Assembly: GCF_026151205.1 (NCBI RefSeq)
Contig: NC_087072.1
Span: 17,747,669-17,811,668, forward strand
Origin: Bolinopsis microptera
Taxonomy: Eukaryota > Ctenophora > Tentaculata > Lobata > Bolinopsidae
DNA: 64,000 nt
Direction: 5' to 3'
Shown here in pieces: positions 1 through 37,000 of this stretch. The notes below the pieces were generated by a model that ran no database searches, had not been told where the DNA came from, and saw nothing but the letters and a program-made list of their open reading frames with translations. A program made the position numbers and the translations under genes. Each line of letters starts with the position of its first letter. The stretch's first letter is position 1.

Positions 1-1734
1 GGTAAAAGTCGATTGATTCTCTGAGAATTGTACCTCTAGGCTCTAGCTGCTATACGTAACAAGTAATATGACAAGAGGAGAGGCTGGTCAATATTGTTAG
101 TATTTTGTGAACGTAATAAAATTGTTGCCTACAGTTTTTTGTAGAGGAGGGCTATCAAATGCTGTGGTTGTATTACAAATTGGGAGGTTTGATTGCTGAC
201 TGGCTGTTGTTGAAATTAACAAAAAGGTGCTGACGTTATTTGTGAAATCTGTAAGTTATCGTATCGCACACATGACACATCTTTCTTCGTTAACAGTGAA
301 ATTATCTTGTATCTGCTCGAGTTTGGACACTACTTTAAATTATAACCTCCAACTGTATTGAATCTGTATTTGTGGTGATATATGTATAAAACCAGCGCAT
401 TTTATCCAAATGTATGTCTAAGCTAACCAGCTCATCCAGCTTGACTCTAATAAACCGTAGATAACCTATTCGGGGCGGGAAGTGGCACTTCCACCCTGAA
501 CTAGACGCATGCTGTCAGGTCACAAACAGTTGCAGTAGAAGTAGGTACTAGTACTAGAACTCCTGATAGAGGCGTCACGTAGCCAGGAACGTTGGAAGCA
601 CATTATTATAAATACGTCATTACCTTCACTACTGCCTTTCTTTCTTCTGCCTTCCTTTCATCACAGTACAATATTTCACTACGGTACTATGTATAGACTG
701 TTCTATCTCGTTCTCTGCCCGCTCTATATCTTTCAAGGTGATATTTTCTTGTTTCTACTTATTTTACACTGTACATTTAATTACTCATTTAGGAAAAATT
801 TTATGTTATGAGGGTTCCTGCGACTCCGTCAAAATACTAAACTTCAAAGTGCAAATCAAGCCGTAGTTCATACACATTACATAAGACGATAAGCTTAGAA
901 TTAAATTAGTAACGCATTTAAGGAATTCAGTGTGATTTTGGGAAACATGTTTACATGTGATGAGGTGATCATATCTCGACCAAGTCCATCTCGTGCCTAG
1001 TTAGCGTTATCTCTTTATCTTGACAAGTAGCCTTCTCATTTTGATTATAATGTTGAAACTTGAACCACTCTCAGGTGTTGTGCAGCTTGTGTTTGTGGAA
1101 ATATTCAGTCATCCGTATCATGAGGCACAGCTATTTCTTGTGGGCATACAAATGGGCCTATAAGTTGAACTGGGTTTAAAGTATTATTGCTTATACATTA
1201 TTATTTATTAGTGGGTTTCTTATTATTAACCTTAGCAGATGTATTGCGGATTAATCAGCGGACCATGAGCGGGATTCTTTATCTGTGGGTCTTCTTATTA
1301 GCGCGTTTATTAAAAAATAATGTTTAGATTTTAGGAATTGATAAACAAATTTATGAAGGAGCAAATTTTGAAATATGAGTTGGTATCAATTCATAAACGT
1401 TATGAATTTCATTCTGACTTTTCTTCTGATCCTGATTAATTTGCTTGATTAATGGCAATTGTCAGCTTTACTGACAGGTTTATTAGAATGTTTACTAACA
1501 GGTTTATAAGAAGGCTAATATTTGTATGACAAGATACCTGTTCGTCACATAGGTGCAGATTTCGTTTTGAGGTGAACTTTTAAGTTCCCGAGAAATTTTC
1601 TTAAGTTTGCTTTTTTTCCTCCTCGGGCACATTCGTAACCTACGGGCCAGGTAAACCTAAACTACATATTGACCGTTATGTACGTCGGTATCTGTTGAGG
1701 AGCCAAATCATCTGAAAAGCCCTTAACCTATATT
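1..1734. other. Non-coding stretch, no gene recognised
   Basis: AT-rich sequence with stop codons in all frames. I see no exon with a convincing acceptor, open frame and donor. A CGTAGCCAGGA word near 578 also occurs at the start of the repeat at 1741, which suggests a small fragment of the same repeat family. Exons too short to recognise by eye cannot be excluded. Confidence 0.5.
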
Positions 1735-1737
1735 TTG

Positions 1738-2250
1738 CTCAGGCACGTAGCCAGGATTTTTCTTTGGGGGGGGGGGGCTGTCGGCGAGCGAAGCTGCAAG
1801 CTGTGGCAGGGGTCCGGGGGCGCGGCCCCCAGCGGGATCCAGGTAAGGCGCAGACCACATTGGCGGGGGCTAGGGGGGCGCAGCCCCCCGGAAAAATTTT
1901 GCGAAATAGGGTGTTTTAGGCTAAATTGAAAGTTTAATGAATTTACAAAAATGTATGGTTTGGCATAATCCTTGCCTACAATCCTGACCTGAGTAATTTA
2001 CCCCTTTGAGACTTTATTTTGGGTTGAAAATTAAGTTTATCGAGAGGAAGTGAAAAATGTTTGGTTCAAATTTGGATTTGAAGCCATGTTTAATTTTTTC
2101 TGTTGAGGTCAATTTTTTGCGCAGAAAGCGTTCGATTTTAGGGGAAAAAATTTATGTTTGCTTTTAATTTTTATGGTGCCGACGGCACCTAAAATCGACG
2201 AAATCTGCAGGGGTGGTTCGTCACGTGATACACCCCTCTTTGTTCCCCAA
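1738..2250. repeat. Interspersed repeat with G-rich head
   Basis: Begins with a GGCACGTAGCCAGG-type word followed by a run of 13 G and GC-rich palindromic blocks (CCGGGGGCGCGGCCCC near 1816; GGGGGGCGCAGCCCCCCGG near 1873), then continues into AT-rich sequence. The abrupt composition change and G-rich head are typical of transposon-derived interspersed repeats in invertebrate genomes. No protein is encoded and the right edge is uncertain. Confidence 0.45.
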
Positions 2251-2935
2251 CCTCTGTAGTTACTGTAGTTGTACACAGTACAACACAATAGAGCTTGTGT
2301 GTTAACCCTGAAGTTACATATTATCATGAATATGTAATTTTGAGCTCTATTCTGTTTTACAAGTTTACTACAGCAAATTATCAAAGTATAACAACCGTCC
2401 GGGGATTGAGACTAACTAAAGTTATGTTTTGTTATCATGTGATTATGTGTATCAATTTTTCTACTCACTTGGATTTATTCTTAATCATAAGTTTGTGGAT
2501 CAAGAACTTAGTATGGTGAATTATATACTGAAGTTAAGTGTAATAATAGAGTTTTTGAACCTTTATGAATCTATATTGTATAATGTGTATTGTAACATGA
2601 GCTGAAATGCATGATGATAATGCATAGCACGAATGTTCTCATAATTACCCCCTTGCAACAATAACAATTATTATAATACTCGGATAATATCTAATATCGA
2701 GTCTGGCAGCTCACACACACACACATCACATGATACTGATCAGCATATCACGTGACTACTTCTTACAATCTTACTGTCATAGTAACTGTTATTAAGTAAC
2801 GTGAGTCTAGTGTGATGATGAGAGTGTACACATGCAGGTTCCTGGCTGGGATCACACGCTCTTAGCCCAATTATCAGATAGATTTGCATAATAGTTGCAT
2901 AATTGTCAGCCGTCAAACCACACGAGGGTTATTTT
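2251..2935. other. Non-coding spacer
   Basis: AT-rich sequence with a short CA microsatellite near 2711-2725. No supported exon was seen. Confidence 0.5.
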
Positions 2936-3052
2936 GTGTAGTGAGTGAGGTTTGTTTAGTGAGTGTTGTGAGGTTTGTTTAGTAAGTGTTGTGAGGTTTG
3001 TTCAGTGAGTGTTGTGAGGTTTGTTTAGTGAGTGTAGTGAGGTTTGTGTAGC
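2936..3052. repeat. Minisatellite, 23-bp unit, about 5 copies
   Basis: Tandem copies of a unit reading GTGAGTGTTGTGAGGTTTG plus TTTA, with single-base variants (GTAAGT, TTCA, GTAGTG) between copies. Every copy contains a GTGAG or GTAAG donor-like word. No coding role is apparent. Confidence 0.85.
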
Positions 3053-3696
3053 GTGGTCCCCACTACACCCACTGCACCGTAATAGTTAATACAGTGTCTA
3101 GTATAGCATGGCATAATGAGTAATAAGTATAATACGCTAATTACAAGTCATGATAATATCTCTGAACCTTGTGTTTTCTACTGAGTTACAATATGTCATT
3201 CTTAAATCATCCATAGCATGATAAGCTCGGGAAGTTGCACTTCTATTCTCTTCTATTTCCCCTCCTCTACCTGTCGTATGATCTCTAACCAGTAACCACC
3301 CTCACATGTCCTCTCTTGCTCATTAGCTTTGTACATGACTCTGTTGTTCTCGCTGACACCTGCTTACTTTGCAGATCCCTGTTAGTGGTTAGCTGTGCTC
3401 CCTTTTATTTTACCCATTTTATTATTTTATATATAGACTTGCATCCAAATTTGAAATTACAATCTTTTATTCTAGATAAAGGAGCAAATAAAATGCGATC
3501 AGTTTAAAAATGCTTGTTAGGTACGTCTAACATTTCAGTTATCTCTTGCAAAATATAATATATTATTTTGTATAACCGTGTCATTATCAGCTCACAGCCT
3601 CGTCTAGATCAGAGGTTTAAAAAGCAGTGCGATGTTATGTACAAGATATGTCATATGAACTGTGTGCCTGTGCTAATCGCATTACTTTTCTTGCAG

Positions 3697-3729
3697 AGTC
3701 CGGTGACGCCCTACCAACACATGATCTAG
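3697..3729 (+). CDS. Possible terminal exon of an upstream + strand gene
   Basis: A strong polypyrimidine tract and acceptor (ATTACTTTTCTTGCAG, ending at 3696) is followed by an 11-codon frame, SPVTPYQHMI and TAG. It could be the C-terminal exon of a gene whose other exons lie at 1-3600, but I could not find phase-compatible partners, so this rests on the acceptor alone. It may equally be a chance match. Confidence 0.18.
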   Translation, partial: SPVTPYQHMI

Positions 3730-3746
3730 CGCGTGTCGTGTGTATT

Positions 3747-4226
3747 TAACAGTCACCTTTACTTACTAATGTAACATTTAGCAGTCACATTTACTTACTA
3801 ATGTAACATTTAACAGTCACCTTTACTTAATAATGTAACATTTAGCAGTCACCTTTACTTACTAATGTAACATTTAGCAGTCACATTTACTTACTAATGT
3901 AACATTTAGCAGTCACATTTACTTACCAATGTAACATTTAGCAGTCACCTTTACTGACCAATGTAACATTTAGCAGTTACCTTTACTTACTAATGTAACA
4001 TTTAGCAGTCACCTTTACTGACCAATGTAACATTTAGCAGTCACCTTTACTGACCAATGTAACATTTAGCAGTCACCTTTACTGACCAATGTAACATTTA
4101 GCAGTTACCTTTACTTACTAATGTAACATTTAGCAGTCACCTTTACTGACCAATGTAACATTTAGCAGTCACCTTTACTTACTAATGTAACATTTAGCAG
4201 TTACCTTTACTGACCAATGTAACATG
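3747..4226. repeat. Minisatellite, 32-bp unit, about 15 copies
   Basis: Head-to-tail copies of CATTTAGCAGTCACCTTTAC followed by TTACTAATGTAA. Variants alternate (TTACTTACTAATG versus TTACTGACCAATG) in an irregular pattern. It ends about 230 bp upstream of the PISD start codon, in the presumed promoter or 5' UTR region. Confidence 0.92.
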
Positions 4227-4457
4227 CGCTGTAGTACATCATGGGACCCCTGTCCTGGAATCTGTGTTTTGAGATGATAGTTCATTGTTACTAACTAAGA
4301 TATTAAATAGCAGTGGAACTTACACTTTACTTCATTACTCGTGATCCAAATTTTGGATTTTGACTCCATATTTTTGTTACTTTCGGCTTTGTTCTAGATG
4401 ACAACTGACAAGTCGTAATTTAATGCCCATGTTTTGATCCGTAGTTTTGTTTGAGAG

Positions 4458-7400
4458 ATGGTTAGCAGATATAAAGTCAGATATAGGATCAAAAACTTCC
4501 GCTACAAAATAGGAAACAAGTCTAAGAAAGGTGAGTAGTAGATAAGAGGCTTAACATTAACAGTTCACTTTAATGACACGTCACACACGTGATGAGGCCT
4601 AACCTAAACATTTTAATAACACAACATAATTTAATCTTTTAATATATAATGTGATGCTTAACTATAACTGTTAACTTTAATAACATACGTATATAATGTG
4701 GTATACCGCCCGTATACGTTATCATATTAATAATTTTACAGGTTCACGTCCCACTATCCTACATAATATCAGCTCATATTCACGTACCATGTCACTGATA
4801 TGGATAAATCTTAATCAATCGAATACGTTCTATAACGTAAACTTGTAACTGAAATAATAATTTGAATTAATGTCTATATTATATTTTAAAATTTTGTGAA
4901 TTCATTAATAACGCTATATTTACAAGTAATATCCGTCCAAAGTGCAACTCATGTAACTTTAAAATAACCCCATAATGTTATCCCAATAATATGATGCTAG
5001 TTTTCCCTTTGTAATGTTATTCTAATAATATGCCACTAGTTTTCAGGGCGTCTTTGTCTAAGGGGCAGAGTTTAACAAACAGGAACCCTAACTCCACTCA
5101 ACTAGGTTAGTACCGACTATTCTTATTTTTTCAGTTATTGCAGGTTTGTTTAAAGGTTTATTCACACTTCGCAGATTTAACTGTTTCAATATCACTCTTG
5201 TTTGATAGATAGTCGCTATTTTTTCCATCGCCTTAAAAAGGCAATAGATGGTTAGAAGTGGTAGGAATTGAGGACGGGTATAGTGGGTAGGTATGTTTTT
5301 CGTGTCACGTGAGTCATGAATTGTGTCACAAAGGAAAACATGCATTACCCTCCGCATAACCATTTAAATGCATCTTCTCTGCGCGCGGAGCAGTAATGGT
5401 GTCATCTCCACGGTTACCCTCCGCACACGTTTGCACGATTCGACGATTGTATTACACTTTCAAATGCGCGGCGCCAAGCTGACTAAAGTTTTCATAACAG
5501 TTACGGTCATGGGTCAGCGTACATATGTAATTACAGTAATTTCTTCTGTTGTTTTAAATGGATTTTAATATAAATAATGTTGATCATTGATGCGCTACAA
5601 GTACAACTACAAGTATAACATACTAATTTCACGTTTTGTTGTGAGTTATTGGTGCAACAACCGACTTGGCTCCCGATAATGCTATTAGAAATTAGAAATT
5701 AGAAATTAGAAATTAGAAAGATCATTGCAAAATTACATGTGTCAGAACTCAGATCCCAATCAGTTAAATGAAGATTATTAATAATCCGTTATATTGTTGA
5801 ACGAGCGTGCTTAATCACTTTACAGTCGATCTTCGAGATTGTTCTAAAATTGGAATTAATATATCAAATAATAGGTTAGGGTTTCGAATAGTCGTTCAGG
5901 GCCAGCTAGAGAACAAGTTGAAAAAGTTACGTGACAGTCGAGTGCAGAGTAATTAATTATCATGATCATCCTTTGTTGAACAAATTATGATGCTGATATC
6001 ATGTTGAACATTATTGTCGAGCGATTAATTTGTTATACGAAATGGACCGTAAATATTATTATGAGTTACATTATGATTACCTAATACGGATTTCAGCCAT
6101 TCCTTCACATGGCTTTTGTAAATTGTAATTTTAAATTTTAAAAAGCAATGCCTACGAGTACGGTCGATGGAAATCTAGCGTCCGCTAACCGGCGCAATTC
6201 TTGTTGGTGTAAATTTGATCTGTGTTATTGACTAAAGCGACAATTTCTCTGTACCTCTTCGCCTCTTGCCTTATCCGAAAAATCACATCTGAAAAATCAC
6301 ATCTGGTCCCTTCACAGTTCAAAATCTGCAGATTTAGATCGGCATATTTGCCTCTCAGGCCTCCATTCCGATTAACAGCCATGTTTGCATAATGCACCAT
6401 TAAGTAATGAAGTATTGAGCACAAGGGGCATACTACACATAATGATCGTTGTTTAGGTGAGGTGTGCACTGTGCATTGTGTAGCCCTGGTACTGTGTAAG
6501 TGGTAACGCCCTTGTAGCTTGTAGATCCAGGGTTCTTTGTATAACTTTATTAGTGGTAGCAGCTTGTAGATAACAAGTGTTGTGACTATAACCTGGTGAC
6601 TTATACCTTCATTAATCATCAATACAGGTGCATGCCTATCACGTAAACAAATACCTCAAATACTTAACGAGCTATAGGTCACCGTCAATCAGTTTCATAA
6701 CATTAGAGCTTACATACTGAAACGATTCGTTTGTTTTCATATAGAGGAACAGAAAATTCTTCGACCTTTCAATATTGTACGTGGTGAATTTGTTAAATAA
6801 TTTCCATCCTTTGCTATCTAAGTTAAAATTTATTATGGTATAAGGTATATATACCTTATATATTACTATTATCACTTCGAGATGGCCAGGCCTACTCTCA
6901 TGCTGTCTATAGGTGATGATTAATTCCGAAAAACTTTCACGTTGAACGTGTAATGTAAATATAGTGTGGATACATGCGAATATATATTCTAAATAACTTA
7001 TAAATTACCTTATATATTACCTTATATATTACCTTATATTTATATATATTACCTTACTGAAAGTAATTTATAAATTACTTTCAGTTAGGAAATGCCTTGT
7101 TTGTTTGTTAAATATACCTTACCATTTCCATGTTCAGTATTGACAGCCTGTTTGAGTGCGGGATCAGTTGCTACATACTACAAAGATAACTGGTTTCGAA
7201 TACCAGTTCTAGTCGGAGTTTTATTTCTCTGCTACATTCAGGTACAGTGGGTTGCCATATTTGTACATTTCATTAATTTGTATCTGCGTTATTCAATATT
7301 TCCATTCTTCTCTCCTGTATAACTATGCGGGGTGTAAACTTGTCCTACAAGAGATTAAAATCGATTGTAAATTCTACTTTGTAGGACTGTAGAAGAGACG

Positions 7401-10400
7401 ATGATATTTCCATATTTTGTGGATTGTGACTTGAAGATGTACACTGTACAGGAATTTAACAAAATTGTTATCTTTAAATTCTTGATATTTTATATCTGTT
7501 TTCATTGTTTCAGTTCTATAAAACTCGGAAACGAGAGGAAAAACGATTAAAAGCCCTGGCAGCAAATCCAGCCGAAGTAGAAGTAGATGATTATTTAGTG
7601 AGTCAATACTGATCTGAGCAATAATGCGTTTTTAAAATGCTGTTAAATTTTATCAGTCCGGTTTCAGATTCAATCAAGTTAAGCTAAAAGAATTATTCCA
7701 TCGGGTATTCCATTAATTGGTATGCGCTAACAGATGTTTCCTATTTCAGGCATACCTTTATCAGTTCTTGCCACTAAGAACCGGATCTAGAGTTGTTGGG
7801 TTCGTCGGGGAGAGGGAGCTGCCTCGACCAGTTCTTAACCCCATTCTTAACTTTTACTGCTGGTAAGGGTTTAGAGCGTGTTATTGATTCTTCACAATTC
7901 TTAACCATTTTGATTTAACCTGGATAAGTGGATAGTAGACCTTACAATATTGAAACTTTCCCCACTTTCTTTCACTAAAATCTTTCTGTCAGGTATTTCA
8001 ATGTAAACTTAGGAGAAGCAGTACAAGAATCACTGGACGCTTACCGAACTTTAGGAGACTTCTTCCAGAGGGAGCTCAAGCCTACTGTTCGGAAGATCGA
8101 CCGTAAATCACCTTTGGTAAGTTCTACATTTGTCATTTGCTATCATTAGCTATCATTAGCTATCATGAGCTGTTATTAGCTGCCGTTTGAGTAGTCTCTT
8201 ATTTCAAACAACAGATTTACTTACACTAGTTCTTAAGGGATGTCCTTACACTCTGTAAACAGCTTACGGCACCAAGCGGCACTCAGCAGCACCCAGCTAC
8301 TAAGCTTCTGGGAGTGGGCCCCTTTTTGAAAAATTTTGAAGCTCGTTTTGAAGTCCATTTTGAAGGCTCATGTTTTACTAGATCTACTATACAGTTCAAT
8401 GTTATAACAAATAATACTGTTACAGGTGATACCATGTGACGGCCGTGTGTTACACTACGGGAAGTGTGAGGATGGTGTTGTAGAGCAGGTCAAGGGGGTC
8501 CGGTACCCAGTGGAGAGGTTCTTGGGCTGTCACCCTCAACTTTCAGGTTCTTATCTTACACTCGTGTAGTTCTTAGAGTTGGTAGGTCCTGTTCATTGGG
8601 GCAGATCGGATAGATAAGCATCGTAGAAATAAAATCAGAAAATACATTATGTTTTATGCGCGTTTTCAACTGTAAACCATTCAAACCCAGGACTTATAAA
8701 TCTTGTTTCAGATCCAGAAGCCAATGATCTGTTTTACTGTGTCCTGTACCTAGCTCCTGGAGACTACCATTTGTTCCACAGTCCCTGCTCCTGGTCAGTA
8801 GACAAAGTCATTCATTTCCCTGGTACGTGGAATTAACACTCTCCTTTTACTTTGTGTTCTCAATTTTCATATATCTCATTTTTAAAAGTGGCAATATGTA
8901 ATGTGATAAGTCATGCGGTATTAGTTGTTTGAAATTTATCTCTAACCAACTGCAATACTGCATTCAGTCTGGACGTAAAGAATGTTCAAAGTCAGTCACT
9001 GAGTACTAAAACAGAAGCCCCCGCCCCCACCTCTAAACAGAAGCCCCCGCCCCCACCTCTAAACAGGAGCCACCCGCCTCCCCCCGCCCCCACCTCTAAA
9101 CAGGAGCCCCCGCCCCAACCTCTAAACAGGAGCCTCCCCACCTCTAAACAGGAGCCACCCGCCTCCCCCCGCCCCCACCTCTAAACAAGAATCCCCCGGG
9201 CCCCCCCCCCCCACCTCTAAACAGGAGCCACCCGCCCCTGCCTCTAAACAGGAGCCACCCGCCTCCCCCCGCCCCCACCTCTAAACAAGAACCCCCGCCC
9301 CCCCCCCCCCCCCCACCTCTAAACAGGAGCCACCCGCCCCCGCCTCTAAACAGGAGCCACCCGCCTCCCCCCGCCCCCACCTCTAAACAAGAACCCCCCG
9401 GAACCCCCCCCCCCCCCCCCCACCTCTAAACAGGAGCCACCCGCCCCCGCCTCTAAACAGAAGCCCCCGCCCCCACCTCTAAACAGGAGCCACCCGCCTC
9501 CCCCCGCCCCCACCTCTAAACAGTAAACAAGAACCCCCGCCCCCCCCCCCCCCCCACCTCTAAACAGGAGCAACCCGCCCCCGCCTCTAAACAGAAGCCC
9601 CTGCCCCCACCTCTAAACAGGAGCCACCCGCCTCCCCCCGCCCCACCTCTAAACAAGAACCCCCCGCCCCCCCCCCCCCACCTCTAAACAGGAGCCACCC
9701 GCCCCTGACTCTAAACAGGAGCCACCCGCCTCCCCCCGCCCCCACCTCTAAACAAGAACCCCCCCCCCCCCCCACCTATAAACAGGAGCCACCCGCCCCC
9801 ACCTCTAAACAAGAACCCCCGCCCCCCCCCCCTCCCCCCACCTCTAAACAAGAACTCCCCGGCCCGGACCCACCCCCACCTCTAAACAGGAGCCACCCGC
9901 CCCCACCTCTAAACAAGAACCCCCCGGCCCGGACCCACCCTGTCTAAACACACACTGTCCAGGTACGCTGATGTCAGTGAACCCGTCAGTCTGTAGGATA
10001 GTACCAAACATACTCACACTAAACGAGCGGGTCCTAATGTCAGGATCCTGGGAACACGGTTACTTCTCCTACACTGCTGTTGGAGCTACCAACGTCGGGT
10101 CTATCAGAATCAACTTCTTGAAGGTACGTTTTTTAGCTGTAACAACAATTTCTCCTTTCAATCATATGTTTTCAGAGCCAGAATTTAGTATCTACTCCAG
10201 CCTAGTCTTGACTTGATGAACTTTGTGTATGTTTCTGTTACAGTACACCATTTATTATCATAATTAAATGTGGTAAAAGTCTGAATTCAGCTAAGTGGGC
10301 TTTTGTGTATTGTGTCTGACCCTGGAGGTCACGAGTAAACAATAAACATGCTATGTTAAATTCATTTACATTTTTATTTTCATATATTATAAGTCTGTTA

Positions 10401-11888: not shown

Positions 11889-14800
11889 TCACTCGACGAG
11901 CGCCAAAGCCTCTTCGGCTTCAGCTTTGAGCTCCTGGTAAGAGGTGGCAATCATTTCTTCAGAATACTGGTCCAGCTCGAGTTCAGTATTTACAGACACC
12001 TTCCCAGTGTAACTAACCGTCACCTGCAGGGAGAATCGTGGCTCATTTTTCGAAAACATGTTGGGCGTAATATCTTTATTATACGGTATAGATGAGCAAT
12101 TAATATAATTGTAAAGGCAATGAAAGTGGGATTCTAATAACGATTACCCTCTTTAATTTATATCATAAAAACAGATGAGAGCTCTTACAGGGAAAGAAAA
12201 GAACACTCCCTTTGGTACACCATATTCTCCGTTGCTAGGTAACGCCATGGAGACATGTGCGCCCTGTAGAGTTCCATTTGTCCAATAAGTAAGATGGTCT
12301 GCTATAGCTTTTCCAGTCGACATTGTCGTCATTCCCCGTCGGTTTATAATCTCCTTGAACCTCGTTCTGACGATCTGAAATGGCATTATCACCATGGTTG
12401 ATGTTGCCTGGCCTCACGTTCAACTTTGTCGGCCCTGGTTAATTTGCAGGACTCATAGTCATAAGTCTTGCAAAATAAAGTGTTAATATAAAATCATGGT
12501 CTGACTTGTGTGTTAGGGTACCTGGAGAAGTTCTCCTCTGGACCAGGACTCCTCTATAAGCTGCTTAACAGGTGTTAGGGTGTTAGTGGCTGGATCCAGG
12601 AGGGTAGCGTGAGACACATCAGGGTACATAGTGGAAGAGTGGTTACCCCAGACTACCACGTTCTTAATGTGCTCTGTATTGGCTCCTAGCTTTCTAGCTG
12701 CCTAGTGGGGAGATAAAGTTTATAGTTGGGGGTCGTTCACATATTGCGTAATCAATATTTTAACAATTTCCCCCTCCGCCCCACCCCCCCCCCCCCCCCC
12801 CTCCGTAATCAACCGTATTGGGGAGGTAGGAGAATTAGCTTTGGTTTTATATCTCACAGATTAATTCCCGTGTTGGAGATACTACAACTAGATTTTCAGA
12901 AAATTAAGGATGCCAAAAAGTCGCAGTCAAACACAAAAATAGTTGCTAGTTCTTTATTCCTCACTCCCGCTGAATCTAATTACTTCTTCTACGACATGTT
13001 CCCTAGAAGTAGTATTAGCTGAGCTTGGTAAATTATGAAAAAAGGCAATTTGCAATTGGATAGCTGGTGGGGGGGGGGGGGGGGGGGGGGTCCAACCCGA
13101 TGTCCGATATGAGGGTTGATGAGGCCAAAATCGGAATCGGAAAAATCGGAAAATTGAGAAATTAACAGAATCGATCTCTAAAACCTCTCAGAAGTGATAT
13201 AATTCAACCAGAACCCCTCCATATGCTATATTGTTATGAGAAAACGAACCAATTGGACATTCCAATAGTATGTTTTATGTGTTTTTCCACTGCAGGGGCG
13301 CTAGTATGCTCACTACTAGTTGGAGTTGTCATGTACTCCCAGACCCGAGTGCTTTGGCCTTTTAACGTGAGATTGATTGTTTCTGCTCATTAATTTTATC
13401 CCTGTTACTTGTTATTATGTATTAGTACAACAATAGGTACCGGGTTATATTTTGTGGTCCGGTCTTTAAACATACCATAATATCACTATTACACTGCACC
13501 TTAAATGTATAGTCAAGTACATTTGTATCGTAACACATGCTTGGCTGGGGGATCATGTTTTGTGTCCGTTCGGTGACCTATATTTTCAAAACGGACAAAA
13601 AGTAGGGCGAACAAAAACAGACAACTCCTCCTCCTTCTCATCAGTCCTCCTCCTCCTCTTAAGTCTTCCTCCTCCTCCTGAGTCCTCCTCCTCCTCAGTT
13701 CTCTTCAGTCCTCTTCCTGACTCCTCGTCCTCGTCCTCGTCCTTCTCCTCAGTCCTCCTCACCCTGCTCCTCAGTCCCCTCCTCCTCCTCAGTCCTACTC
13801 CCAGTCCTCCTCCTCCTCCTCCTCCTCCTCATTTCTCCTACTCATCCTCCTCCTCCTTCTCCTCCTCATCAGTCCTCCTGAGTCCTCCTCATAGTCGTCC
13901 TCCTCCTCGTCCTCCTCCACCTCCTGAGCCCTCATTTTGAGTCCTCCTCCTCATCCTCCTCCTCAGTCATCCTCCTCTTCCTCCTCAGTCCTCCCCAGAC
14001 CTCCTCCACCTCATCCTCCTCCTTCTCCTCCTCATCAGTCCTCATCCTCTGTCCTCCTCATAATCGTCCTCATCATCATCCTTAGTCCTCCTTATCCTCC
14101 TCCTCAGTCCTCCCCCAGTCCTCCTCCTCATTCTCCTCCTTCTCCTCCAAGCCTCATCCTCCTCCTCCTTCTCCGCTTTCTTCTTCTCCTAATCAGTCCT
14201 CCTCCTCCTCGTCCTTAGTCCTCGTCCTCGTCCTCCTCAGTCTTCCTCCTCAGTCCTCCTCCTCATCATCCTCCTCCTCTTCCTCAACAGTCCTCCTCCT
14301 CCTCCTCAGTCTCCTCCTCCTCATCGTCCTCCTCAGTCCTCCTCCTCCTTCTCCTCATCAGTCCTCATCCTCAGTCCTACACTAGTCGTCCTCGTCCTTA
14401 GTCCTCTTCCTCCTCCTCTTCCTCCTCCTGAGTCCTCCTCATCCTCATCAGTCCTCCTCGTCAGTCCTTCTCCTCCTCTTCAGTCCTCCTCCTCCTCCTC
14501 TTCAGTCCTCCTTCTCCTTCTCCTCATTCTCCTACTCATAAGTCCTCCTCCTCAGTCCTCCTCTTCCTTCTCCTCCTCCTATTTCTCCTCCTTTTCCTCC
14601 TTCTCCTCCTACTCCTAAGTCCTCCTCCTCAGTCCTTCCCCAGTCCTCCTCCTCATCAGTCCTCCCCCGGTCCTCCTTTTCCTCATCATCCTCAGTCCTC
14701 CTCCTCATCGTCCTACTCAGTCCTCCCCCAGTCATCCTCCTCCTCAGTCCTCCCCAAGTCCTCCTCTTCCTCAGTCCTCCCCCAGTCCTCCTTCTTCTTA

Positions 14801-17800
14801 TCCTCATCCTCATTCCTCCTCCTCAGTCCTCCTCCTCCTCCTTCTCCTTCTTATCAGTCCTCTTCCTCAGTCCTCTTCCTCAGTCCTCCTCCTCGTCCTC
14901 GCTCTCGTCCTCCTCCTCCTCCTCCCCGTCCTCAGTCCTCCTCCTCCCCCTCCTCATCAGTCCTCCTCCTCCTCTTCAGTCCTCCTCATGAGTCCTTCTC
15001 CTTATCCTCCTCCACCTCCTGAGTCATCCTCCTCCTCCTCCACATTCTCCTCCTTATCCTCCTCCTCCTCAGTCCTCCTCATGCTCCTCCTCATTCTCCT
15101 CCTTCTCCTCCTTATCCTCCTCATCCTCCTCAGTCCTCCTCCTCATCCTCCTCTTCCTTCTTCTCCTAATCAGTCCTCCTCCTCAGTCGTCCTCCTCCTC
15201 TTCCTTAACCCTTGTCCTCATCCTCCTAGTCCTCGTCCTTAGTCCTCGTCCTCCTTAGTCTTTCTCCTCAGTCCTCCTCCTCCTCCTCATGAGTCTCATC
15301 CTCCTCATCCTTCTCCTTAGTCCTCCTCCTCTTCCTCAGTCCTACTCCTCAGTCCTCCTCCTCTTCCTCATCCTCTTCAGTCCTCTTCCTCAGCTCTCAT
15401 CTTCTTCCTCCTCAGTCTTCCTCCTCTTCAGTCCCCAGTCCTTCTCCTCCTCGTCAGTCCTCCTCCTCCTCCTCTTCAGTCCTTCTTCTCCTTCCCCTCA
15501 TTCTCCTCCTACTCATAAGTCCTCCTCCTCAGGACCTCAGTCCTCCTCTTCCTTCTCCTCCTCCTATTTCTCCCCCTTTTCCTCCTTCTCCTCCTACTCC
15601 TAAGTCCTCCTCCTCAGTCCTTCCCCAGTCCTCCTCCTCATCAGTCCTCCCCCGGTCCTCCTTTTCCTCATCATCCTCAAGTAAAAGTGTTTGCTGATGA
15701 CTCCAAGCTCCACAAAAACATTAGCTCCCCGTCCGACTGCAAATGTCTCCAGGAAGATCTCTGTGCAGTAGTGCGATGGGCAGTAGCAAACAACATGGAG
15801 CTAAACGAAAGTAAGTTCCAACTTCTCCAGCATGGTAAGAACCCTGAGCTAAAGAAACCCTACATTTTACCATCTGGTGCATCGATATCTTCTGATGATG
15901 TCGTGAAAGATCTCGGTGTGTATGTTGACAGTGATCTCTCCTGGCGTCAACACATCACAAGAAAGTCCTCTGAGGCAGCGAGCAAAGCTGGATGGGTACT
16001 GAGAACTTTCTCTACCAGAGACAAAGACACGATGATGATGCTCTTCAAGACATACGTCCGCTCTATTACCGAGTATTGTTGTGCTCTCTGGTCGCCTCAC
16101 CTGCAGTGTGACATAATCATGATTGAGTCGATCCAACGCTCATTCACTGCGAAAATAGCAGGATACAAGCATCTTAGCTACTGGGAGCGCCTGAAGCAGC
16201 TTGATCTCTACTCCCTACAGCGCCGCCGCGAGAGGTACATGATCATCCTTGTCTGGAAAATTTACTACGGTGAGATTCCCAACAGTGTAAACATTTCTTT
16301 CCAACACTCTCAAAGAAGAGGAGTTACATGTCTTCGTCCTCTTGGCGGATCAAAATACAAAAGCATCAACACCATGAGGTTCCATTCTTTCCCTTCAGTG
16401 GCCTCTGCTTTGTATAACGTTGTGCCTCACGACATCAAGTCTATCCCAACCTTGCCAAAATTCAAGGCAGCACTTGATCGCTTTCTCCATACCGTCCCCG
16501 ACACCCCTCCTACCCCTGGATATACAGGGGCAAATGGCAATTCAATCTTGGAATGGGCTGTGAGCAAGACATGATAACGGAGACACCGGTGGTGGAGACG
16601 CAAGATGTCTTGGCCTGGGCGTGCTAGTCCGAAACGAACCCAAGGTACCCAAGGTAAGGTAGGTCCTCCTCCTCATCGTCCTACTCAGTCCTCCCCCAGT
16701 CATCCTCCTCCTCAGTCCTCCCCAAGTCCTCCTCTTCCTCAGTCCTCCCCCAGTCCTCCTTCTCCTTATCCTCATCCTCATTCCTCCTCCTCAGTCCTCC
16801 TCCTCCTCCTTCTCCTTCTTATCAGTCCTCTTCCTCAGTCCTCCTCCTCGTCCTCGCTCTCGTCCTCCTCCTCCTCCCCGTCCTCAGTCCTCCTCCTCCT
16901 TCTCCTCATCAGTCCTCCTCCTCCTCTTCAGTCCTCCTCATGAGTCCTTCTCCTTATCCTCCTCCACCTCCTGAGTCATCCTCCTCCTCCTCCACATTCT
17001 CCTCCTTATCCTCCTCCTCCTCAGTCCTCCTCATGCTCCTCCTCATTCTCCTCCTTATCCTCCTCATCCTCCTCAGTCCTCCTCCTCATCCTCCTCTTCC
17101 TTCTTCTCCTAATCAGTCCTCCTCCTCAGTCGTCCTCCTCCTCTTCCTTAACCCTCGTCCTCATCCTCCTTGTCCTCGTCCATAGTCCTCGTCCTCCTTA
17201 GTCTTTCTCCTCAGTCCTCCTCCTCCTCCTCATGAGTCTCATCCTCCTCATCCTTCTCCTTAGTCCTCCTCCTCTTCCTCAGTCCTACTCCTCAGTCCTC
17301 CTCCTCTTCCTCATCCTCTTCAGTCCTCTTCCTCAGCTCTCATCTTCTTCCTCCTCAGTCTTCCTCCTCTTCAGTCCCCAGTCCTTCTCCTCCTCGTCAG
17401 TCCTCCTCCTCCTCCTCTTCAGTCCTCCTTCTCCTTCTCCTCATTCTCCTCCTACTCATAAGTCCTCCTCCTCAGGACCTCAGTCCTCCTCTTCCTTCTC
17501 CTCCTCCTATTTCTCCTCCTTTTCCTCCTTCTCCTCCTACTCCTAAGTCCTCCTCCTCAGTCCTTCCCCAGTCCTCCTCCTCATCAGTCCTCCCCCGGTC
17601 CTCCTTTTCCTCATCATCGTCAGTCCTCCTCCTCATCGTCCTACTCAGTCCTCCCCCAGTCATCCTCCTCCTCAGTCCTCCCCAAGTCCTCCTCTTCCTC
17701 GGTCCTCCCCCAGTCCTCCTTCTCTTATCCTCATCCTCATTCCTCCTCCTCAGTCCTCCTCCTCCTCCTTCTCCTTCTTATCAGTCCTCTTCCTCAGTCC

Positions 17801-20800
17801 TCCTCCTCGTCCTCGCTCTCGTCCTCCTCCTCCTCCCCGTCCTCAGTCCTCCTCCTCCTCCTCCTCATCAGTCCTCCTCCTCCTCTTCAGTCCTCCTCAT
17901 GAGTCCTTCTCCTTATCCTCCTCCACCTCCTGAGTCATCCTCCTCCTCCTCCACATTCTCCTCCTTATCCTCCTCCTCCTCAGTCCTCCTTAGTCTTTCT
18001 CCTCAGTCCTCCTTAGTCCTCGTCCTCCTTAGTCTTTCTCCTCAGTCCTCCTCCTCCTCCTCATGAGTCTCATCCTCCTCATCCTTCTCCTTAGTCCTCC
18101 TCCTCTTCCTCAGTCCTACTCCTCAGTCCTCCTCCTCTTCCTCATCCTCCTCATCCTCTTCAGTCCTCTTCCTCAGCTCTCATCTTCTTCCTCCTCAGTC
18201 TTCCTCCTCTTCAGTCCCCAGTCCTCCTCCTACTCGTCAGTCCTCCTCCTCCTCCTCCTCGTCCTCATCCTCCTCGTCCTCCTCCTCCTCCTCAGTCCTC
18301 CTCCTCCTCTTCCTCAGTCCTCCTTCTCCTTCTCCTTCTTCTCCTCCTACTCCTAAGTCCTCCTCCTCCTCCTCCTTAGTCCTCCTCCTCCTTCTCCTCC
18401 TTTTCCTCCTTCTCCTCCTTCTCCTCCTACTCCTAAGTCCTCTCCTCCTCAGTCCTCCCCCAGTCCACCTCCTCATCAGTCCTCCGCCAGTCCTCCTTCT
18501 CCTCCTTCTCATCCTCAGTCCTCCTCCTCATCATCCTCCTCAGTCCTCCCTCAGTCCTCCTCCTCAGTCCTCCCTAAGTCCTCCTCTTCCTCAGTCCTCC
18601 CCCAGTCCTCCTTCTCCTCTTCATCATCAGTCCTCCTCCTCAGTCCTCGTCCTCGTCCTTCTCCTTCTTATCAGTCCTCCTCCTCAGTCTTCCTCCTCGT
18701 CCTCGCTCTCGTCCTCCTCCTCAGTCCTCCTCGTCCTTAGTCCTCCTCCTCCTCACCAATCAGCTGCTCCTCTTCCTCAGTCCTCCCTCTCCTCTTCAGT
18801 CCTCCTCCTCCTCAGTCCTCCTCCTCCTCAGTCCTCCTCGGTCCTTCTCCTCCTCCTCAGTCCTCCCCAGTCCTCCTCTTTCTCCTCAGTTTTCCTCCTT
18901 CTCCTCCTCCTCCTCCTCAGTTCTCCTCCTCACCCTCCTTCTCCTTCTCCTCTTCCTTCTCCTCCTAATCAGTCCTCCTCCTCAGTCGTCCTCCTCCTCG
19001 TCCTTAGTCATCGTCCTCATCCTCATCGTCCTTAGTCCTCGTCCTCATCCTCCAAGTCCTTGTCCTTAGTCCTCGTCCTCATCCTCCTAGTCCTCGTCCT
19101 GGTCCTCCTCTGTCCTCCTCAGTCCTCCTTCTCCTCAGTCCTCAGTCCTCCTCCTCAGTCCTCTTCCTCCTCATCAGTCCTCCCCCAGTCCTCCTTCTCC
19201 TCCTCGTCATCCTCAGTCCTCCTCCTCCTTCTTATCAGTCCTCCTCCTCAGTCCTCGTCCTCGCTCTCGTCCTCCTCCTCAGTCCTCGTCGTCCTTAGCC
19301 CTCGCGTTCTCTTAGTCCTCCTCCTCCCCGTCCTCAGTCCTCCTCTTGAAATGGGTAGCACGGTCAATGGTCATTAACCGTGCTACCCATTTCTGCAGAT
19401 AGCCTGTTACAAATTGTGGAGACAATTTAAATCAAAAGTTACTAAAGCGTTCTCTATTTGTTACGATTGCTATTACCAACCGTACCTCTTTCAATTGTGG
19501 ACCGGGGTGGATGTTTCTGTCAAACAAGAGTTGATACGACAGTGTGTTGTTTTTCGGACGAAACGATTCTTGTTTGGAACTAGAAACCATTTTGGGGTTC
19601 TGGGACCACCACCAATCGATTTCTTGTCATATTTAAGTACAGAAATAGCTACCTATATCGCCTAGAAACCTCAGAGGAAAGATTTAAATTTTCCCGATTT
19701 TTCCGATATGAGGGTTGATGAGGCCAAAATCGGAATCGGAATGATCGGAATGATCGGGTTGGACCCCCCCCCCCCCCCCCCCCCCAGCTGGTGTTCCATA
19801 ATAACTCTAATCTCATGTCTGTTTAAAGGGATCTATATCTACAATCTAACTTTGGATTTACCTGAGCAACAGTTCTGTTGTGATCCAGCATGGATAGTCC
19901 TGTAAATTGGGACGGACATATTGAAGGAGCATATTTCATGGTTATCAGAGCATTTGTGTTGCAAGGATTCGCTACGACCAAAACTTTGATTGATCGCTTG
20001 GCAACCTTTTCTAAAGCTTCCCCAGTTTCTTTGAAGATCTTGGCGTTGGCTCGGAGGAGATCTGTTCGTTCTATACCCGGGAGATGGGGCATTGAAGCTA
20101 TTAGGATAGCGATGTCAGCGTCGGCAAATGCTTCCAGTGGTGATGTTGTGATTACGCAATCTGAACGATAAAGTCAATTAAGGTAGGAAAATGGAATCGC
20201 TTTCATTATTCATCAGCTGAGCCTTGCAGACGCAGTTTGTGAATAGTTCTAAAGGTTTAAAGCCTAAAATTAATGAGCTATTGCAACTTCGACATTCCAG
20301 GTCAAAACAGGAGTGAGCCATCTAGAGGGGACGATTTTTAAAAGCCGCCATATTTTTGTGTTATCTTTGATTTTGAAAGTGTTATTTCTCTCGTCAAATT
20401 TGGAATCATCAATGATTAACTCCGGCCGCCAGCTATATTAATTGTTAAATGAAATATACCTAAAACAACGTGGCTAGCAAGATCCTCGATCTCAAGGGCT
20501 ATACCATAGAGTGCATCTTTACTTTTCTCTATGTCTAGCAGGTGCAAGATCAGCATCTGAATAGAGGCAACGGTTCTTCATTTATTAGGTTAAATCAACG
20601 TATTTCTAGCAATAGATCTGAATACCGGTTGGGAGGTGAACCGTATTTTCTTTAAGCGTGACGGTGATTTACCAATCACATTCACGTTGACCATTCAAAA
20701 CCCAGAAGCACTGTCACGTGTCGAAATGAACATGATTCACCTAGCTCCCCAATAACATCCAAACCTATATCTTGCTTAACACTGAATTAATCCAACTGTC

Positions 20801-24250: not shown

Positions 24251-24442
24251 AAAATTACTAGACGTGACTTAGAGCTAAGAGCACAGCGAAGTGCCACTCT
24301 GTGCAACTGCAACACAATTCAATTCATGTTACTCCTGAGACTAAGTCTAAAGTATATAATAGTCAAACACTGCGACAGGACGGAACCTTCATGATCCACC
24401 ACTGCAAACATATTAATATTATTACGTTAATGGCAATGCTAT

Positions 24443-24603
24443 GGGGTCGTTCACATATTACGTAATCAGCTGAGGGGGGGGGTTCCGAATGATTACGCTA
24501 GTGTAAATTTAACACAATAGCTATGTGTAAACTGATTACGGAGGGGGGGGGGGGGTAAAAATGTTCCAAAAAAGTATTACGTAATATGTGATCGAACGAC
24601 CCC
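24443..24603. mobile_element. 161-bp MITE, TAT target duplication
   Basis: Inverted ends GGGGTCGTTC...GAACGACCCC, with ACATATTACGTAAT just inside on both arms and G-rich blocks around TCCGTAATCA or its complement in the centre. TAT flanks both sides (24440-24442 and 24604-24606). A 3-bp TWA-like duplication and G-rich ends suggest a PIF/Harbinger-type MITE. A half copy lies at 12729. Confidence 0.82.
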
Positions 24604-34000: not shown

Positions 34001-37000
34001 TAGTAGTGTAATGACTGGTGAGGGTTTAAAGTCTAACCTAAGTATCTTATTAGAAACTGCACCGATTTAGAATAGGCGGTTTTGTTAGATTCTCAATAAG
34101 ATCAGCCAATAAAAATACACATCAATCCAATCATTACCGGACCACTTTTAATCGATTCTACGATCAACATTACCTTTAGTAATAGTACAACATATTATTC
34201 AGAGTTCTAGAGCTCTAAAGTATCAAACAGAGAAACCAATTCTAAATTCTTACACAGGTTGAACCTGGTGGCTCTAACCACTGAATGAAAGTCCACAAAG
34301 TAATGAAACTTAGGTCATCTCTAATTCTAACTCGTCACATTTCTCTTCTACAAATCTTTCCACATAACATACCGTGAGACCGACAATTTAAGAATATTAT
34401 CTTAACACTATTTTATTATTGCAGTAGTGAAGTGTGAAACACCCAATTACAGGTTAAATTTATGCAGGGGTGAAATCTGTTTAATAATTGTACGATTTAA
34501 CGGCTCTACTGATGTAAGAAAAAACCATAGATCGGGTAGAAGGGTGGTTTATTACTAATATCTTGTTGTTACTTACCACGAACTCTGACTTTGCCATGTT
34601 AGTGTTAACAGGATGATGTATTGCTAGTATCTTGTTGTTATCAGCTACTCCAGTTTTACCAATATCAGAGTAGGGAACATACAGTTCCAGTTTGTTGTTC
34701 ATCACTCCCGCTTTACTCTGAAGTGGGGTCAAGCTTTAGTAATCTTACAGAAATATATATATTATATATATACATACTACTAAGTAATCTTACGTTTAAA
34801 CTTGATCATCAGTCAATATGGATATTATAAACGACATAGTTTGTTACGATGGAGAGCCTGTAAATATGGAATTTATGACAATGTGTTACTTAAAGGATGT
34901 TTGCCACATTTAATACATTATAGGATAGTAGAGGATTTATATAGGATAATATAGGATAGTACACATTGCAGTGTGTAGAAAATGCAGACTACAACCTCAG
35001 AGTCAGCTCACATGTATATTCCTATTAATTGTGGCCAGTATAAAGTTGTTTCCCCCCCCCCCCCCAGTATATCTACCTGGTCCAGCACCTCCAACAGTTC
35101 GTCTATCTGAGCCTCTACTTCATTAAGAGTCTCCAACTCTGATCTTATCTCGTCTGACTTTGCATCTGCCTGTGTGTTTGTCAGACTAGATCCCCCTCCT
35201 CTGTGAGAAGAAGTGTTAGATAAACTGTTCTAGTTTACGTGTACAGCACGCGGGATGACGGGATGGATTGTTGAACTTTCTTTACTTTTAAAGGTACTGT
35301 CTGTAATTCTGCAAAATTGGTTTTGTTCTAGAATAAACTGACCACGCGATCACGTTTTCTTCTAGAACAAAACCAATTTTGCACTGAAACTGTAACTAGA
35401 GGTTCCCCATACATATTGAGTTAATAAAATATGTTAACAGTTGTAAAGAATTATAGCTCCAATATGTCGCGCTCACACTGTAGTGTTTAAAAGAAACAGC
35501 GTGCCAAGGAATGATAAAGCTCTGTATACCCTGTATAATGTATATAGGTTATTATATATTTTATATTATGTTATATAAGTGAAAGTTATTGGCTAATTAT
35601 TAAGTGCACACAATATATAGAGACTGTAATATACGGGTAATAATCCAGGGTAGAGTTGGGCGTGTGACAAAGTGCGCTATGTAGATGTGTATGTGTGTGT
35701 GTAGTGCCATGTGTACATATTATTAGCAGTCGTTATACAGGCGAATAGACTAATACTAAGTTATTTACTACAACACTGTACAATTACAACACTGTACAAC
35801 TACAACACTGTACAACTACAACACTGTACAACTACAACATTGTACAACTACAACACTGTACAGCTACAACACTGTACAACTACAACACTGTACAACTACA
35901 ACACTGTACAACTACAACACTGTACAACTACAACACTGTACAACTACAACACTGTACAACTACAACACTGTACAACTACAACACTATACAACTACAACAC
36001 TGTACAACTACAACACTATACAACTACAACACTGTACAACTACAACACTGTACAACTACAACACTGTACAACTACAACACTATACAACTACAACACTGTA
36101 CAACTTGTCACTGATCTAGACTTGTAATTTTAACTTTACCTCCCACTTGAATAGATAACAGATAATTTAAGAGCACGTCAGCCGTCAGATTATACAGTAT
36201 ATTATAGGCTATAGCTGTACTACTGTAGAGTATACAGTAGAGTATACAGTAAGGTAGTAATGACTGCGGTCATATAAACTGCTAATTGCCCATCAAAAAT
36301 ATCTAGCGTCTCTTTAAATATGACTATGAAGCGTCCACTGACTTCTAAACATATAAGTGACCGGGCTTTTAGGAGAGTTTGAAGCAAATGTCACATTTCG
36401 ACACAGTGATTATGCCACTAATTCAGAGTCGCTAATTCTGTACCACGAACAAGTTATGGTCACAATATTGTGTGTACACGTTTGTAAGCATGTAACGGGA
36501 TTATTACTGGAATTGTAAATATTTCGTGGTTCAAACGGGATAGAAATAAAGGACTAGTGTGTTTGATAATAGACTACAATGTCTACATTATATCTACAGT
36601 GTACGGTAGCTCTTTATATAAACTATAGCTCTCAACCCTGCACGATTGCCACATATTCAATTGTTAGTAGTTGGCAGATGTTCACATCAGATTAGCACTA
36701 ATATGTTGAGTAATATAGTAAGTATAAGGGCGGTTTATCCGGTGAAATGATGTATAATAATAAAGAAAACCGCTACGTTATAAATAATAGCAGCTGTAGC
36801 GCATTGTTAGGTAGCGCCTAGTTAGGTAGCGCCTAGTTAGGTAGCGCCTAGTTAGGTAGCGCCTAGTTAGGTAGCGCCTTGTTAGGTAGCGTCTCGTTAG
36901 GTAGCGCCTCGTTAGGTAGCGCCTTGTTAGGTAGCGCCTTGTTAGGTAGCGCCTTGTTAGGTAGCGCCTTGTTAGGTAGCGCCTTGTAAGGTAGCGCCTA

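Follow-up and report, generated by a model that had tools for sequence, protein, structure and literature searches.

Among the described elements closest to the one reported here, the Tetris/DAIBAM foldback elements of Drosophila are non-autonomous carriers of tandem repeats for which the source records no autonomous partner as found (PMC4079207), and the Cg_HINE elements of the oyster, non-autonomous Helentrons, disperse satellite-like central arrays (PMC7492417). With regard to target-site duplications, those of the Dada superfamily measure 6-7 bp and those of the hAT and P superfamilies about 8 bp; Dada elements insert into small-RNA genes, and Dada-U6 and Dada-U1 are without terminal inverted repeats (PMC3706591). 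TRIM retrotransposons have direct terminal repeats around a non-coding interior (PMC6934838). Here we examine a 64,000-nucleotide stretch of contig NC_087072.1 of the ctenophore Bolinopsis microptera (the window, meaning that whole stretch), in which an insertion bounded by a G run and a C run lies in an intron of the malate dehydrogenase gene MDH1. We found that this insertion, at positions 13062-19793, is a member of a dispersed, non-autonomous transposon-like family, which we call family A and whose ends read G(n)TCCAACCCGAT...ATCGGGTTGGA C(n). A first reading of the letters alone (the sequence-only reading) had suspected a new non-autonomous element, a view supported by dispersed copies, target duplications, empty sites and an array that moves with its element as one unit; changing runs and solo copies were observed as well. 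We consider it probable that family A is a new family of non-autonomous DNA transposons whose homopolymer ends slip and whose cargo is an array.

We first describe the window copy (Table 1). Upon re-reading the sequence, its G/C-run ends and inverted tips were recovered, as were the 40-bp blocks at 13103-13142 and 19702-19741, which are identical and in direct orientation. The left run had been given as 21 G; we count 22, the first of which possibly belongs to the duplication, hence the lower figure. Similarly, the proposed 8-bp duplication holds for the window copy only when one G of the run is counted with it, and the family norm is 6-7 bp. The mostly pyrimidine-array interior stood as described, in two parts of 85% pyrimidine split by a reverse-transcriptase-like fragment, which, from a frame read by eye, we take to derive from a long interspersed nuclear element (LINE) and which gave no Pfam match at E ≤ 0.001. 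Because the element has malate dehydrogenase exon pieces, encoded on the minus strand, on both sides, with Ldh_1_N on one and Ldh_1_C on the other, it lies within an intron, in agreement with the MDH1 context proposed earlier.

When searching the 264.65-Mb assembly, we observed the exact end G8+TCCAACCCGAT 190 times (93 forward, 97 reverse; reversed-pattern control, 0), and relaxed ends (at least 6 G, up to 2 mismatches) 260 times against 5 in the control. Pair counts rest on the 100 exact ends of the 190 whose places were located; among these there are 36 facing pairs and 28 single ends, with 26 of the pairs spaced at 2.6-3.7 kb, one at about 80 bp and the longest at 6.7 kb. Genome matches to the left end show 93-100% identity (best 40 listed of 249 candidates) and those to the right end 97-100% (best 40 listed of 356), and since the full 8 G of the query are covered in 37 of the 40 left-end matches listed, long runs are the rule among them. 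In seven other fetched loci the left-end alignment extends over 542-579 bp in six, and in L007 it is broken by an insertion after 475 bp. Inverted ends are common to the dispersed copies; among the whole copies measured, pairwise identity exceeds 99% in the best pairs and is 90.5% in the median pair. The expectation that copies with the same ends would turn up elsewhere was thus borne out by the 190 exact ends and by pairs in facing orientation, and the possibility that the window copy stands alone falls away in view of the same-end copies, paired ends, duplications and empty sites. Assembly is difficult where homopolymers are long and where arrays occur, yet with 190 ends against none in the control, different flanks and empty sites, an assembly or chance artefact has next to no likelihood.

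Next, we investigated the flanks of 44 copies (the window copy, 23 whole loci, two of them solo, and 20 flank pairs), of which 43 were measurable, using a measure that excludes a starting C and an ending G, as these merge with the runs. The exact flank repeat is 7 bp long in 19 copies, 6 bp in 13 and 8 bp in one; in the remainder it is 5 bp (3 copies), 4 bp (2), 3 bp (1) or absent (4). Duplicated flanks of 6-8 bp therefore accompany 33 of the 43 copies, as had been anticipated from the window copy, and a fixed 8-bp duplication is rejected for family A, in which 32 of the 43 have 6-7 bp. Each of the 33 repeats of 6-8 bp has A as its first and T as its last base, in the form A-N4/5-T. Among the 43 copies, 42 have a T immediately before the G run and 40 have an A immediately after the C run. 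The flanks have about 30% G+C, which does not explain the fixed A and T. Upon comparing the joined flanks of 38 copies with the sequences already retrieved for the analysis, unoccupied sites were matched for three, with a fourth match (29 bp, 83%) not counted. The L073/L074 copy sits in a miniature inverted-repeat transposable element (MITE), of which unoccupied copies at window positions 12729-12781 and 24440-24468 carry a single ACATATT (7 bp); for L014 and L020, which were inserted into tandem arrays, neighbouring array units show a single ACTTCT and AGTACT (6 bp). Empty sites, a check that the sequence-only reading had put forward, are thus available for three occupied sites, and from them it follows that 6 bp and 7 bp are both real lengths. 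MITE-like copies starting GGGGTCGTTCACATATT extend in the window over 24440-24590, with inner G9 and G13 runs, and over 12729-12801, adjoining a C18 run.

We also examined whether the array belongs to the element. A sister copy on contig 7 (L031) aligns with the window copy in two stretches, one of 6275 at 98.9% identity and one of 480 at 99.8%, the match taking in the reverse-transcriptase-like fragment, and it has its own duplication, AATATAT, and runs of G7 and C8 versus 22 and 22 in the window. Because L031 matches the window copy over the whole unit and carries its own duplication, the array is cargo that moves, and the earlier suggestion of an element carrying satellite-like DNA is upheld. 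Reading from the left end, one meets the CT-rich strand of the array in 18 of 18 whole copies measured. In these the array parts are 82-85% pyrimidine, and their length is 1.3-2.7 kb except for a 0.26-kb piece in L020, a copy that also holds an inverted portion. Family A, together with the copies of family B (below) that were read, spreads satellite-like arrays through the genome, here into an intron. Helitron-type insertion is not known to make a target duplication. A Helitron or Helentron with central repeats, as in the oyster, would likewise place satellite-like arrays centrally on a non-autonomous element (PMC7492417), but Cg_HINE belongs to the Helentron superfamily, whereas target duplications and inverted ends are present in family A, and we give this identity almost no weight.

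When the other named families were compared, each of those tested departed from family A in at least one defining feature. The hAT and P superfamilies comprise DNA transposons that have inverted ends and give rise to non-autonomous derivatives; their duplication length resembles that of families B-D described below (mostly 8 bp), whereas family A differs by its 6-7 bp duplication, its fixed A...T and its ends starting with a G run, and hAT was rejected for family A on the 8-bp duplication (6-7 bp in 32 of 43). Kolobok and piggyBac duplicate TTAA, and both were set aside for family A, which does not show this duplication; TTAA is found in the separate family E (3 of 4 copies). Tetris/DAIBAM elements are alike in their lack of coding capacity, their tandem repeats, their shorter derivatives and the absence of a partner in the account given, but they have long inverted repeats containing the repeats and 8-10 bp duplications (PMC4079207), unlike the 11-bp inverted repeat plus homopolymer, the direct blocks and the 6-7 bp duplications of family A; a Mutator/foldback assignment was discarded on the 8-10 bp duplication and the long inverted repeats. 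Dada shares the 6-7 bp duplications, whereas family A has inverted ends and its targets include a MITE and satellite arrays. Literature searches, which do not show absence, turned up no homopolymer-ended transposons in print. We rate family A as a non-autonomous DNA-transposon family with unusual termini, array-dispersing elements being already known from oyster Helentrons and Tetris.

Upon examining the region inside the short inverted repeat, we observed that in family A it scores 67-70 in direct and 34-35 in inverted local alignment, and at most 23 in 200 shuffles. Single-strand folding of the end units of A (solo copy), B and C gave z values of −4.7, −4.4 and −6.7, stronger than all 200 shuffles in each case. 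Three solo elements have one block between both inverted ends; the two that were read are flanked by ATCTGTT and AACTAAT. The solo copy L041 has left-type bases before the shared block and right-type bases after it, as expected from recombination between direct blocks. Direct terminal blocks, inverted tips, solo copies and the lack of a coding region together recall a long terminal repeat (LTR)-like, TRIM-type retroelement, and the direct blocks indeed outscore both inverted ones and shuffles in families A-D. The two blocks were compared in 28 copies (30 whole copies listed, two dropped because their right block could not be read; L091 was not among the copies extracted). One position is A in 28 of 28 left blocks and T in 28 of 28 right blocks, and two more are nearly fixed, whereas reverse transcription would equalise the blocks at each insertion. 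Mean differences are 0.36 among left and 1.10 among right blocks, and left and right blocks differ by 3.5 within one copy, no closer than the 3.49 between different copies, on which LTR-style copying is rejected. Left and right blocks are inherited separately, with no copying from one another, and in this family A departs from TRIM elements despite the similar layout. As the inner block edges are also without a complete tip sequence and without a run, an LTR-like origin is very improbable, even with three solo elements in its favor.

The DNA-transposon reading also has to account for the runs themselves, which in the measured copies are 7-32 bases long on the left and 7-50 on the right, with a correlation of r = 0.15. 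Two loci whose flanks agree at 109 of 110 bases carry runs of G20 and G25, and a third (100/114) has G46; a second pair, also sharing 109 of 110 flank bases, has G26 and G25. Loci with 109/110 shared flank bases appear from this agreement to be one insertion later duplicated, and because such duplicated copies differ in run length, the runs change after insertion, which we take as slippage. L014 and L019 are 99.8% identical, yet their run lengths differ. In contrast, internal runs are constant across 21 sequences (5 G in 17 of 17 readable, 4 G in 19 of 19 readable), and slippage above a length threshold explains both the changing terminal and the fixed internal runs. Alternatively, the runs could be made anew at each jump, by a polymerase adding a non-templated C tail to both 3' ends of the excised or copied element before integration. 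Such tailing would be in line with the occurrence of terminal G runs in five families whose duplications are of three types (6-7 bp, 8 bp and TTAA), the barely correlated left and right lengths, the large run differences between near-identical copies (22/22 in the window, 7/8 in L031) and the unchanged internal 4-G and 5-G runs. However, G20 versus G25 in duplicates of an apparent single insertion indicates that slippage can produce the spread, and as the pattern that brought up families D and E and most of C requires a G run, the sharing of runs is partly selection; we regard tailing as unlikely. Runs added at each jump, if real, would mean that this host processes transposon ends in a manner not yet described, and runs that only slip would provide a fast marker on individual insertions. 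Separately, near 6.66 and 6.81 Mb of C5 (L048, L049) there is a duplicated segment with family-A left ends, in which 109 of 110 flank bases are identical.

G-run termini, a feature singled out in the sequence-only reading, hold for family A but are not unique to it, as we found four further run-ended families. Families B-D have direct blocks and mostly 8-bp duplications, and family E has long inverted repeats and TTAA. Family B and the first family-C copy were found as nested insertions in family-A copies, and D, E and most of C through the G-run pattern, for which reason the sharing of runs is partly a matter of search. Family B ends in G(n)AACCAACGGGCATTAATGG (9 exact ends; control, 0), with CCCTGA/CCCTAA arrays, and its longer copies hold both CCCTGA and telomere-like CCCTAA arrays. 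Direct blocks were seen in four of its five copies, the four tested; in L107 the left G run is broken by one T and ATCCCGAA lies outside the run. Family C ends in G(n)CCAATGGCATAAA; it, too, has direct blocks, and its duplications are mostly of 8 bp. The pattern G8, 0-3 bases and CCAAYGG gave 1049 forward and 330 reverse hits versus 7 and 3, many places being multiply counted, and with places counted several times, the CCAATGG-type ends of family C apparently number several hundred in the genome. All 10 of the B, C and D sequences tested have direct blocks, whereas the single E copy tested has long inverted repeats instead. Duplications of 8 bp flank 11 of 14 B-D copies (B 3/5, C 7/8, D 1/1), three of the 11 counting one run base, and the C run makes that of L091 8-10 bp; TTAA flanks 3 of 4 copies of family E. 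Of 21 family-A sequences, one of the 21 being a 65-bp solo, 11 contain the exact empty site of the family-B insertion in L093, and none contains that of the family-C insertion in L091. Homopolymer-run ends span families A-E with three duplication types, and A-D share the direct-block layout. A host-wide process that, whatever the transposase, creates and maintains terminal G/C homopolymers, for example a host polymerase that adds C tails to exposed 3' ends of transposons ahead of integration, is a rather improbable explanation; it would account for run-ended termini across families that duplicate 6-7 bp, 8 bp or TTAA, and the run would then record each jump. A possible further run-ended element, GGGGGTGATGCAAACGTCAATTAATGTCAG, begins at L122:1191, and a 1.7-kb inverted-repeat element (GGCAATTCCACGG...) is found twice inside one family-A region (L119:2643-4371 and 5809-7538).

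Finally, we searched for a transposase and an autonomous partner. No transposase was recognised among frames of at least 100 codons in 20 whole family-A copies; the frames are array translation, end sequence or nested insertions, and the one that was Pfam-scanned, the end frame of L021, had no Pfam match. In the genome, domain matches comprise 88 for MULE, 43 for THAP and at least 150 for hAT (150 of 366 candidates scored), and by visual inspection their places were set against the 36 family-A pairs listed and the contig-1 ends listed for the G-run pattern. No MULE, hAT or THAP match lies inside any of the 36 pairs, with 90 of the 190 ends outside that listing. The P-type transposase PF21787 and the KDZ transposase PF18758 had no genome match, and the control genomes likewise gave none for either. 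A MULE match about 7.5 kb from a family-C end (L123) proved to be a FLYWCH/MULE gene outside the element, and in the fetched stretches of four THAP loci (L124-L127) G and C runs do not exceed 6. One of these, L124:1858-4245, is an open frame of 796 amino acids with THAP and Mutator-like transposase domains, and C1:24398622 and C9:11280744 equal it in score and frame length.

Twelve long family-A stretches were read (L028, L029, L032, L091-L096, L119, L120 and L121/L122), nine of which (L028, L029, L091-L095, L119 and L120) contain long stretches absent from the reference copy L017. The extra stretch of L091 is a nested family-C element and that of L093 a nested family-B element; others in this set have inverted repeats or a poly-A tail at their borders. 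Long array makes up most of L032 and of L096, which has a 0.3-kb insert as well, and L121/L122 has 12 kb of mixed sequence and a further family-A left end between facing ends. In L095, 4.1 kb (225-4331) lies between short family-A ends, about 1 kb of it shared at 95% with L121 (238-1376); seven frames of L095 and three of L121 had only sub-threshold Pfam matches (zf-RVT, RRXRR), and we tentatively take the L095 interior as decayed retroelement sequence. The autonomous member with a transposase that the sequence-only reading proposed to look for was not found among the copies read, and family A is, as far as its 20 whole copies were read, non-autonomous.

Under the DNA-transposon reading, a DDE-type transposase supplied in trans would recognise the inverted end and the TCCGAT-rich block and would join the C-ended 3' strands of the element just 5' of a target A on either strand, with 6 or 7 bp between the two joints. 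The run would be ordinary end sequence grown long enough to slip, giving each copy its own lengths, and solo copies would arise through recombination between direct blocks, as in L041. Several observations weigh against this scheme. The enzyme is inferred, because no transposase or autonomous partner was found, no partner with the same ends having been recognised in the 20 whole copies or the longer copies read, and L095, with its 4.1 kb between family-A ends, may yet be an unusual longer member. The flank repeat is shorter than 6 bp or absent in 10 of 43 copies, and two duplication lengths are unusual for a single DDE transposase. The run-ended families beyond A, one of them with TTAA, hint at a G/C-end bias beyond one transposase, and the sample, mostly picked by exact 8-G ends, is biased to young, intact copies.

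Table 1. Features of the window copy of family A and its surroundings, and copies of further run-ended families (window positions unless a locus is named)
Feature	Position	Strand	Remark
Left target-site duplication AGCTGGT	13062..13068		8 bp if the run's first G is counted
Left outer terminus, 22 G	13069..13090	+	first G perhaps part of the duplication
Short terminal inverted repeat TCCAACCCGAT	13091..13101	+	
Left 40-bp direct block	13103..13142	+	TCCGAT...ATCGGA at edges
Conserved left end region	13091..13624	+	aligned across fetched left-end loci
Polypyrimidine array, part 1	13617..15683	+	85% pyrimidine
Reverse-transcriptase-like fragment inside array (presumed LINE)	15681..16662	+	present in sister copy L031 too
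Polypyrimidine array, part 2	16662..19350	+	85% pyrimidine
Inverted-repeat hairpin	19348..19393	.	inner edge of right end
Conserved right end region	19394..19763	+	97-100% identity among 40 genome matches listed
Right 40-bp block	19702..19741	+	orientation as left block
Terminal inverted repeat	19753..19763	-	ATCGGGTTGGA on + strand
Right outer terminus, 22 C	19764..19785	+	
Right target-site duplication AGCTGGTG	19786..19793	.	
Host MDH1 exon region, Ldh_1_C	12156..12413	-	domain match
Host MDH1 exon region, Ldh_1_N	19829..20173	-	domain match
MITE-like copy, unoccupied form of the L073/L074 target	12729..12781	+	joined-flank comparison
Family B copies	L093:2454-5109, L103:44-389, L104:51-2599, L105:45-2407, L107:45-1560		
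Family C copies	L091:1939-3619, L108, L111, L112, L116-L118, L123:8944-9926		
Family E copies	L110, L113, L114, L115		elements of ~1.36 kb, G-run ends

Elsewhere in the window, a C-rich minisatellite at 9009-9930 contains many C runs, the longest of 18, and an inverted-repeat element at 49326-49927 has a G5/C19 run inside longer matching flanks (AACTATGTCAT...), the run being therefore subterminal. Clean tandem arrays are found at 36796-37620 (15-bp unit), 38593-39664 (54 bp), 35767-36105 (16 bp), 3744-4225 (32 bp) and 59808-60120 (21 bp).

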